The notes under the pieces: generated by a model
What the model saw: only the letters and a program-made list of their open reading frames with translations
What the model was told of the DNA's origin: nothing
Database searches by the model: none
Made by a program: the position numbers and the translations under genes
From: a virus
IMG/VR virus record: IMGVR_UViG_3300034198_016345
Span: 1-35,192 of that record
DNA length: 35,192 nt
Direction: 5' to 3' (one strand)
Shown: piece by piece, positions 4,149-9,947 of the stretch
How the letters are laid out: the number at the start of each line of letters is the position of its first letter
Numbering within the stretch: position 1 is the stretch's first letter

Positions 4149-4511
4149 ATGAGCAAAGTATCTATTGAACTAAGTGCAAGCGCGAGAAATAGCATCACAA
4201 GGGTTTTGCGCATCCTTGCAAATAGCAACAACTCCCAAATTGCAGAGAAGCTTAACCTTGATCCAACGACATTCTCACGCTTTAAAAACGATAAGAAAAA
4301 CAATGGATTGACGGATATTGAAAACGTTTGCGCGATGTTGGATTTGCTTGAATTAAAAATCGTACCGAAAAAATACAAGTTAATTCACAAGGAAAAATTA
4401 GCAGCACTTTTGAATTTATCAAAAGCGTATATGGGACGCCTAGGTTCTGTCGATGACTTGTTTCAAGACGACATCGAAGACTTTGGGATTAATGAAGAAC
4501 TTGGATATTAA
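4149..4511 (+). CDS. CII-like transcriptional activator
   Basis: A 120-residue protein in the lambda cII position, between cro and the replication genes. Residues 10-55 match the CII family: SARNSITRVLRILANSNNSQ, then IAEKLNLDPTTFSRFKND, an HTH that reads like the CII S-x-x-AE-x-L-G-V-x-x-S-T-I-S-R-W pattern. It should activate establishment of lysogeny from a leftward promoter upstream of the repressor. The C-terminal 60 residues differ from lambda CII and the protein is a little longer (lambda CII has 97 residues). Its stop codon overlaps the U-tract of an antisense RNA terminator. Confidence 0.8.
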   Translation: MSKVSIELSASARNSITRVLRILANSNNSQIAEKLNLDPTTFSRFKNDKKNNGLTDIENVCAMLDLLELKIVPKKYKLIHKEKLAALLNLSKAYMGRLGSVDDLFQDDIEDFGINEELGY

Positions 4512-4543
4512 AAAACCGCTTTCCAGTTGGAGCTGGCAGCGGT
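4510..4543 (-). terminator. Terminator of the OOP-like RNA
   Basis: ACCGCT (4515-4520) pairs with AGCGGT (4538-4543), with a second helix CCAG/CTGG inside (4523-4526, 4533-4536). Only the minus strand has the U run (six), so it ends leftward transcripts. There is no leftward gene that would need it apart from the small RNA. Confidence 0.75.
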
Positions 4544-4572
4544 CGTATTCATAGGAGTCAAATCGAATGAAC
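4510..4572 (-). ncRNA. OOP-like antisense small RNA, about 63 nt
   Basis: A minus-strand promoter (4579-4607) would start RNA at about G4572. The transcript ends at a strong intrinsic terminator whose U-tract is the complement of the A run at 4510-4515, overlapping the cII stop codon. Its place, between cII and the first replication genes and reading leftward toward cII, is that of lambda OOP RNA (77 nt). It is fully complementary to the mRNA carrying AGGAG (4553-4557) and ATG (4567) of the 26-aa ORF, so base pairing could block that start or create an RNase III site after cII. This is prediction from signals only. Confidence 0.6.
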
Positions 4573-4647
4573 ATAGAAATTCTAACACATCATTCCAGAC
4601 AGGTGAAGCACCCGAGGAGTGCACAGGGTGAGGGACATGATGAGTAA
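4567..4647 (+). CDS. Small ORF, 26 aa, upstream of replication gene
   Basis: An ORF with a clear AGGAG nine bases before its ATG. It encodes 26 mostly polar residues and overlaps the start of the DnaT-like replication gene by 8 bp. It may be a leader peptide that couples translation to the replication gene. Its ribosome site and start codon are exactly what the antisense OOP-like RNA would cover. Short length limits confidence that the peptide itself has a function. Confidence 0.5.
   Translation: MNIEILTHHSRQVKHPRSAQGEGHDE
4579..4607 (-). promoter_or_regulatory. Promoter of the OOP-like RNA
   Basis: On the minus strand TTCACC (4607-4602), an exact 17-bp spacer and TAGAAT (4584-4579), with TG one base before the -10 (extended -10). 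This is one of the better sigma-70 matches in the window and it points against the operon. Confidence 0.6.
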
Positions 4648-5530
4648 CAAGATAGTAAATGAAATCCGAGAATTGCCAATTCATAGCACACCTAAGCACT
4701 TGCTTTGGGTGATAGCTGATATTGCAGACGACAATGGCCAGACTGGCTGGTATGCACCAACATCACGCTTGATTAAAGAGACTGGCTTGAGCAATAAAAC
4801 AATTGCTGAATGTGTTTCTTATCTAAAAGATTGCGGAATTTTATCTGTAACAGGTGGTGCAGGCAGACAAAATCACTACTCAGTTAATGCTCAAAACTTT
4901 AACCCGACTGTAAAATATTCGCCTAAAAAACAATCAAAACCAGTGAGCGAGGTTCACCAGTGTGCCAGTTTTACCAGTGAACTAGGTTCACAACCACCAG
5001 TGAACCTCTCTCCAAAACCAGTGAACTTGGCGCAAAAACCAGTGAGAGAGGTTCACACTATCCATCATATCCCTCAATATCCCTCTGTTTATCCATCTAT
5101 AGGTGATGCAGAGAATGCACCTAAGGTTAAGTCAGAACCTAAGGTAAAACGCATCACTAAAAAACAAGCTGGCATCAATCGACTTGTTGAACTTGGTTGT
5201 GATGAAAAATATGCACATGACTGGATGGTTAATCGTAAAGGCGCACCACTAACAGATTCAGTTCTTGAAAACCTAATTGAGCAAGCAACCAAAGCAAACA
5301 TCACTTTGGCTACAGCAGTTCAATGGACAGCTAAGAAGGGCTACCAAGGATTTAAAGCCGATTGGTACTTGAAAGACCAACAACCGCAACAGAACACTGG
5401 CTACCAATCATCTGCCCAACAAACAGCGAATGAACAAGCCAAGTGGGACAACTTCCTGAAAGGGAAAACTCAACTTGTGGATGTCTCGCCAAAAAAGACG
5501 TTTCTGATTGAGGGGGTGGGTCATGCGTGA
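4640..5530 (+). CDS. Replication initiation protein: winged-helix plus DnaT-like domain
   Basis: I start at the ATG at 4640, five bases after AGGG; an ATG directly before it and a GTG further upstream are less well placed. The protein has 296 residues. About residues 10-85 are a winged-helix domain of the HTH_36 type found at the start of phage O-like replication proteins (YAPTSRLIKETGLSNKTIAE). A low-complexity linker rich in PVNL/PVSEVH repeats follows. About residues 180-250 resemble the primosomal DnaT C-terminal domain, ending in AVQWTAKKGYQGFKADWYL. The combination suggests origin recognition plus single-strand binding and helicase recruitment. The next gene, a probable helicase loader, overlaps it by 8 bp. 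Confidence 0.8.
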   Translation: MSNKIVNEIRELPIHSTPKHLLWVIADIADDNGQTGWYAPTSRLIKETGLSNKTIAECVSYLKDCGILSVTGGAGRQNHYSVNAQNFNPTVKYSPKKQSKPVSEVHQCASFTSELGSQPPVNLSPKPVNLAQKPVREVHTIHHIPQYPSVYPSIGDAENAPKVKSEPKVKRITKKQAGINRLVELGCDEKYAHDWMVNRKGAPLTDSVLENLIEQATKANITLATAVQWTAKKGYQGFKADWYLKDQQPQQNTGYQSSAQQTANEQAKWDNFLKGKTQLVDVSPKKTFLIEGVGHA

Positions 5531-9707: not shown

Positions 9708-9947
9708 TTGTCTGTAAAAAGACAATCTATCCTACTGGAGTGCCGACCAGTGGAACATGCCTTCGAGTAAAACTGCTTTATGCAGCCTAAACTAGGGAGT
9801 GGCGTCCCGACCTAAAGAGGATTGAAAGCAAGTAAAGCAGACCGTGCATGTTAGGTATGTGTGATTGTGAGTAGCGGTAGATCAGTTGCCGAGCTGATCA
9901 ATATCGTAATCTAAGGCAAGGGTGTGGCAGTTTGCCATGCCCTTTTT
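9708..9947 (+). ncRNA. Candidate structured RNA with terminal hairpin, about 240 nt
   Basis: No ORF fits here, but complementary segments are dense. They are TTGTCT/AGACAA (9708-9713, 9720-9725); CTACTGG/CCAGTGG (9732-9738, 9747-9753); a long-range pair AACATGC/GCATGTT (9754-9760, 9846-9852) enclosing an exact 8-bp pair CTGCTTTA/TAAAGCAG (9773-9780, 9833-9840); GGGA/TCCC (9795-9798, 9805-9808); and GATCAG/CTGATC (9880-9885, 9894-9899). CTGC/GCAG (9773-9776, 9782-9785) would compete with the 8-bp pair, so two folds are possible. The RNA ends in an 11-bp terminator. I recognise no known riboswitch or ribozyme signature. A weak promoter match (TTGTTG, 17 bp, TATCCT at 9705-9733) might give it its own start. 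Confidence 0.55.
9918..9947 (+). terminator. Strong terminator ending the structured region
   Basis: An 11-bp stem (9919-9929 with 9933-9943, two G-U pairs) with a GTT loop and a following T run. It lies 135 bases before the next gene, so it must be read through or marks the end of a separate RNA. Confidence 0.85.

Follow-up and report, generated by a model that had tools for sequence, protein, structure and literature searches.

A putative antisense RNA gene of the lambda OOP type, in a shifted register, at the cII/replication junction of Acinetobacter phages

The window analyzed here, a stretch of viral DNA of 35,192 nucleotides (IMG/VR record IMGVR_UViG_3300034198_016345), carries a set of leftward transcription signals at the junction between a cII-like gene and the replication genes. 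This locus raises the question whether these signals make up a small antisense RNA gene comparable to that of OOP RNA in phage lambda and, if so, on which of the flanking genes its RNA would act. Based on comparison with related junctions, we consider it very likely that a small antisense RNA gene of the lambda OOP type, in a shifted register, exists at this site.

The unit in the window and the genes around it

The early region of the window encodes, in this order, a CI-like repressor on the minus strand, a Cro-like protein, a cII-like regulator, an ORF of 26 aa, an O-like initiator and further genes. The cII-like regulator (4149..4511, plus strand, 120 aa, stop codon at 4509-4511) matches phrog_725 (E 2.2e-33) and, weakly, the CII-like phrog_191 (E 0.055); no match of this protein to the Pfam CII family was found up to E 0.1. 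The 26-aa ORF, hereafter the leader ORF (4567..4647, plus strand), has its ATG at 4567-4569 and a Shine-Dalgarno sequence, AGGAG, at 4553..4557. Its end overlaps the start of the gene for the O-like replication initiator (4637..5530, plus strand, phrog_678, E 1.4e-21) at 4637..4647, an arrangement in which translational coupling is possible. The gene after the leader is an initiator in the window but not in all relatives.

The leftward signals lie across this junction. On the minus strand, a consensus scan finds a −35 box, TTCACC (4602..4607), which matches the consensus at four of six positions and is separated by a spacer of 17 bp from the −10 hexamer TAGAAT (4584-4579); the latter is part of the extended −10 element TGTTAGAAT (4579..4587), and the promoter lies inside the leader ORF. 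The predicted RNA would start at about 4572 and end at about 4510 (4510..4572, minus strand, 63 nt between the predicted ends) and would contain, in the 5' to 3' direction, a hairpin with the complement of the ribosome site followed by a terminator hairpin. The fold of the window places this bulged, leftward intrinsic terminator hairpin at 4516..4542 (minus strand), and its U6 tract (4510..4515, A6 on the plus strand) includes the second and third bases of the cII stop codon. The AGGAG of the leader ORF, which is complementary to the predicted RNA, and the ATG both lie within it. Thus, the promoter and terminator of the original prediction were recovered at their coordinates, as were the unit of about 63 nt and the stop of the RNA at the cII stop codon, where the U6 tract and the codon overlap.

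Within the window, these signals carry unequal weight. The promoter by itself is not significant because 4 kb of sequence contain seven promoter-like sites, the unit's own included, which is fewer than the 9.4 ± 2.8 found in shuffles. A simple terminator scan of the 4 kb did not list the bulged hairpin of the unit. The fold of the RNA had a z of −4.3, with none of 200 shuffles as good. A scan of the window against Rfam at gathering thresholds gave no match at the unit; its sole match, RF03046 (Pseudomonadales-1 sRNA, 131 bits), lies elsewhere, at 9731-9899 on the plus strand. The argument that the unit exceeds chance expectation rests on its conservation among relatives, and the case depends on them.

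Conservation of the promoter among relatives

Relatives were sampled in several ways. Viral loci were gathered by their cII protein (the best 80 of 165 relatives), and nine named phage regions, ten loci from genome contigs and loci taken from a search of 175 Acinetobacter genomes were added. tblastn located a cII relative in 131 loci, counting copies of the window, and three loci were dropped as too short. The final set comprised 89 distinct cII/replication junctions of 180 nt, the window included. Relatives of the window cII are carried by Acinetobacter phages, by records of a plasmid collection and by genomes; in the search of the 175 genomes, 38 matched phrog_725, ten of them weakly (E above 1e-5).

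The pattern TGnTANNNT was present on the minus strand within the expected interval in 86 of the 89 distinct junctions and in one more by a wider search. Because the original prediction had named loss of the promoter in close relatives of the same gene order as evidence against it, the three junctions without a match (L083, L085 and L097) were inspected individually. In L083, the wider search recovered the −10 at a shorter distance because the cII frame reads on. L097 has the terminator and no canonical −10, and is a true exception. The junction of L085, from phage phi4197, has the appearance of a fusion of cII with the leader ORF by deletion.

Two observations on these loci stand apart from the count. 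Both L097 and L104 have a leftward terminator without a canonical −10, and by eye their first ORF is antirepressor-like. In phi4197 (2501-2818), cII appears to be fused to the interior of the leader ORF at ATTAGCA, and this locus lacks the terminator along with the greater part of the antisense unit.

blastp linkage, which superseded an initial 3-mer clustering into 20 groups, sorts the first ORFs after cII, which bear the −10, into 13 families; families 6 and 7 resemble each other (RQVKH) and were merged for a re-test with 12 families. The matching −10 sequences occupy codons of the form NTA NCA with variable first positions, six first-ORF families have the first residues MN[Y/H][S/Q]ILA in common, and common descent may account for some of the −10. 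Because the −10 bases are those of the search pattern and six families share their N-terminus, we took the −35 as the independent evidence.

Several observations on the −35 bear on whether the element is a promoter. First, in 50 distinct sequences aligned on the −10, the hexamer at 17 bp matched TTGACA at a mean of 3.14 of six positions, compared with 0.78-2.74 at the other offsets from 8 to 41, and its first base was T in all 50, as it is in the window. Second, TTG stands at 18 bp rather than 17 bp in four of the 13 family representatives, and when each family was represented by one sequence, the best match at either distance averaged 3.15 versus 2.15 ± 0.26 in shuffles, a score reached by one of 2000 shuffles; with the 12 merged families the mean was 3.08, reached by two of 2000. 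Third, as a control, the −10 pattern occurred at the same distance in 19 of 166 other ORF starts of these loci; each of these 19 is a cII start, their −35 match is 1.2, and none of them reaches 3. Comparison of the relatives shows the minus-strand element of the unit to be a conserved, predicted sigma-70 promoter rather than coding sequence.

The predicted RNA, its terminator and its register

The second signal of the unit is conserved as well: 86 of 87 junctions could be parsed into a hairpin and an adjacent run of 4-7 A on the plus strand, which is U on the RNA, the one without such a parse being L083. In the parsed junctions the predicted RNA is 53-69 nt long (median 60.5), and comparison recovers the putative two-hairpin RNA throughout, with two hairpin loops in all 74 distinct predicted RNAs. 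These 74 RNAs contain 41 distinct terminator hairpins, 17 of a CCRYT type and 24 of a GCCTGA type. The GCCTGA-type hairpins vary mostly in the loop, with seven of nine stem pairs invariant on the class alignment A3, and the stem changes therefore come mainly from the CCRYT class. Taking the end of the cII stop codon as reference, the run of A begins at −2 (37 junctions), −11 (45), −17 (3) or +1 (1).

The 5' hairpin bears the Shine-Dalgarno complement. Its arms are matched to each other, with −6.16 kcal/mol for cognate versus −4.57 kcal/mol for swapped arms and none of 5000 permutations as good. A MAFFT alignment across both terminator classes (A2) was poor and was replaced by one alignment per class (A3 and A4). 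On A3, RNAalifold recovered the terminator and nothing else (covariation term −0.32); on A4, it recovered the 5' hairpin and part of the terminator (+0.07). Column by column on A3, the terminator helix pairs in 99.4% of cells and the 5' helix as written in 34.8%, the latter value being low because spacing varies. Alignment-based covariation support is weak.

The polarity of the hairpin bears on an alternative in which it serves the rightward mRNA, either as an attenuator or by protecting the end of cII mRNA, and in which the promoter is a chance or coding match. At least four T directly follow the hairpin on the plus strand in 8 of 86 junctions, as this alternative would have it; however, three T or fewer follow it in 78 of 86, as against 4-7 A on the opposite side in 86 of 87. 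The comparison therefore shows a predicted terminator that is mainly leftward, and with the −35 peak also speaking against a chance promoter, we find this alternative scarcely credible. A further alternative holds that the junction is a linker at a module boundary, its DNA being kept because recombination swaps modules there. The genes on both sides vary, six first-ORF families begin with the same residues, and the apparent fusion of phi4197 at ATTAGCA would also fit such a linker, but the occurrence of 41 hairpin sequences with variable spacing, and the conservation of the −35 position deeper in ORFs that blastp does not link, make it highly improbable.

The original prediction had also placed the RNA mainly over the ribosome site and start codon of the ORF that precedes the replication gene. 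This holds beyond the window: comparison shows that the ATG with the best ribosome site lies under the predicted RNA in 80 of 87 loci, and at least one in-frame ATG does so in 83 of 87; in the remaining 7 of the 87, the predicted 5' end falls just short of the best-scoring ATG. The −10 starts 6-15, mostly 9-12, nt into the first ORF (58 of the 87 loci listed), and because it sits inside this ORF, the predicted RNA extends over both the ribosome site and the ATG and barely touches cII; in the window, it is predicted to overlap cII by 2 nt. The comparison likewise shows that the end of the first ORF overlaps the next start in 75 of 80 scorable loci, by 4 nt (42), 1 nt (27), 8 nt (5) or 11 nt (1), with the two abutting in four and no overlap in one; these overlaps were scored at a preset list of distances, and 7 of the 87 loci fell beyond the 500 nt examined.

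A peptide encoded on the antisense RNA was considered as well and set aside. The window RNA itself contains an ATG reading frame, and among the 74 distinct RNAs just 23 have an ATG frame of at least eight codons.

To follow the unit through the genus, we used a covariance model (R1) made of the hairpins and the last four −10 bases, leaving out the TG, the first two −10 bases and the −35. Because R1 was built on the GCCTGA terminator class, it undercounts the other class, and run on the window it did not find the window's own unit. R1 matches 77 of 175 Acinetobacter genomes; in a family-wide sample, and under strict filters and for this one terminator class, 65 of 328 genomes match, all of them in the genus set. 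Among the matches listed, 70 were read (30 returned loci and 40 picked), of which five could not be parsed. In the remaining 65 loci, the gene ending at the terminator, classified by blastp to references, is a CP76-type CII (PF06892) in 32, phrog_7146 in 21, phrog_725 in 6 and another in 6; the phrog_7146 regulator has a sub-threshold match to HicB. The strict extended −10 is present in 58 of the 65 loci (28/32 CP76-type, 20/21 phrog_7146, 5/6 phrog_725 and 5/6 other), although some of the chosen −10s may be chance matches. Nine of the 58 were dropped as duplicates or because they occurred in the earlier set, leaving 49 distinct upstream stretches. In these stretches, which were kept for their strict −10, the −35 peak is again at 17 bp (3.02, T in 94%), and a match of at least 3/6 at 17 or 18 bp is present in 40 of the 49, shared ORF families included. 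The −10 together with the −35 peak at these loci shows that the unit is kept behind other regulator families, which in turn makes it unlikely that the cII coding sequence is its conserved target.

In the same loci, regulators of different families (for example those of L218, L221, L225 and L236) share similar tails such as KEKA or NEKA, apparently because the A run and stem of the terminator form their last codons.

Possible targets and mechanism

How does this unit compare with lambda OOP? To place the lambda unit, its 5' end (38,675) and −10 were taken from the excerpts of PMC5869508 and positioned on NC_001416: the −10, CATAAT, shares bases with the start codon of O, and the 5' end of the RNA is one base before the AGGAG of O. 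A set of 80 lambda-CII loci gave 35 distinct junctions, one of them cut off, and by eye the other 34 have ATTATG or ATTATATG at the start of O as a candidate pO. Both systems have a leftward promoter, predicted here by sequence comparison, where cII adjoins the replication genes, an intrinsic leftward terminator near the 3' end of cII and a short RNA with two hairpins, which is 77 nt long in lambda according to the accessible part of PMC12197685 and 63 nt as predicted here. They differ in that the lambda −10 lies at the O start codon and that of the window inside the first ORF. Set on the lambda geometry, the Acinetobacter unit would lie closer to the replication genes, with a shift of ~13-16 nt for the 5' end and of ~35-50 nt for the 3' end. 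Thus, the likeness to OOP drawn in the original prediction stands for position and layout and less so for the target: 52 bases of cII lie opposite lambda OOP (excerpts of PMC5869508), as against 2 nt for the RNA predicted in the window.

This difference weighs on the classical function of OOP, that is, a main role in the RNase III-dependent destruction of cII mRNA and thereby in the choice between lysis and lysogeny. The position is as in lambda, and the lambda RNase III cut, which lies 12 nt downstream of the cII coding sequence in the excerpts of PMC5869508, has an equivalent site that would still fall within the duplex here. By contrast, the 52-base overlap of lambda compares with a predicted 2 nt in the window, the first base of the A run falls between −17 and +1 relative to the cII stop codon end in the 86 parsed junctions, and the unit is also found behind regulators of other families. 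We judge this function unlikely to be the main one.

We think it reasonably probable that the main effect of the RNA is on translation initiation of the replication operon. In the course of events that we infer for the cell, including its timing, leftward transcription would start at a sigma-70 promoter within the leader, the opening ORF of the replication operon, and give an RNA of ~63 nt that is terminated on the cII stop codon. This RNA would pair with the rightward pR-type mRNA at the Shine-Dalgarno sequence and start codon of the leader, and because the RNA is complementary to these sites, pairing and a block of the leader are the most likely mode of action. Blocked translation of the leader would, via the stop-start overlap, also block translation of the O-like initiator. 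Cleavage of the duplex by RNase III may in addition split the message between cII and the replication genes. The outcome would be that replication-gene expression is damped, whether it stems from phage DNA present in many copies or from read-through in a lysogen, and that cII mRNA is limited secondarily.

It could be argued that the promoter acts solely in cis, interfering with rightward transcription and leaving the RNA as a by-product. In the excerpts of PMC3985674, lambda pO is described as acting partly in cis, by interference with pR, which lowers pR transcription and affects replication, and this precedent favors such an action. However, the terminator and the 5' hairpin are both conserved, which would be unexpected if the firing of polymerase alone mattered, and we regard an effect in cis only as decidedly unlikely. 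The same excerpts report that oop leaves the stability of the O-P mRNA unchanged, which, like the action in cis, speaks against a mode based on the RNA alone, and that a role of pO/OOP in replication was proposed, doubted and revived. The competing explanations are not strictly exclusive, and the probabilities that we attach to them need not sum to one.

The preferred reading, in which the RNA acts at the leader, is reminiscent of CopA of plasmid R1. According to the available part of PMC5717011, CopA inhibits a leader frame (tap) that is coupled to the repA initiator. In that system (copB-copA-tap-repA, as described in the same excerpt), as in the Acinetobacter junction, an antisense RNA lies in the gap after a regulator gene and over a leader ORF, and the start of leader translation would be covered here in 80 of 87 loci, judging by predicted RNA ends. 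The differences are that the operon here is that of a phage and that the RNA and the genes are different; we claim no relation in sequence. We tentatively propose, giving it somewhat less than even weight, that the element is a standard exchangeable antisense-RNA junction of Acinetobacter temperate phages, retained with each kind of regulator in the cII position (phrog_725, CP76-type CII or the weakly HicB-like phrog_7146 protein) and irrespective of the ORF behind it, and that it acts as a CopA-like governor of replication, through a block of a short leader ORF with translational coupling to the replication genes, and not primarily as a regulator of cII.

The kind of RNA is already known. The accessible part of a review on phage sRNAs (PMC12197685) gives OOP for lambda and Stx phages. 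In the excerpts of PMC7067206, OOP-BTP1 of the Salmonella prophage BTP1 was annotated from RNA-seq and was so named because it lies in the position of lambda OOP; it shares this position with the Acinetobacter unit and differs in its host group. In the open-access literature, represented mostly by titles and the beginnings of abstracts, we found no report of an OOP-like RNA in Acinetobacter phages and none of OOP in a shifted register; in the accessible part of one Acinetobacter paper (PMC4192346), 'OOP' is an unrelated label. What appears to be new is the predicted shifted register without a long overlap with cII. A phage group in which the RNA faces the start of translation of the replication operon instead of cII would be a natural experiment separating the two roles of OOP, and the unit could serve as a computable mark of the boundary between immunity and replication in Acinetobacter prophages.

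Two further features may be mentioned. The window encodes a pentapeptide-repeat protein (PF00805, E 7.8e-26) at 1515-2054 on the minus strand. In addition, the relatives have a second extended −10-like pattern on the minus strand at the start of cII (window 4149-4163): codon 4 of cII is GTA or TTA in all 62 distinct starts and codon 5 is TCA in 48 of 62, the window having TCT at codon 5 and hence no TG. This pattern has a poor −35 and could be an activator-dependent leftward promoter resembling lambda pRE.
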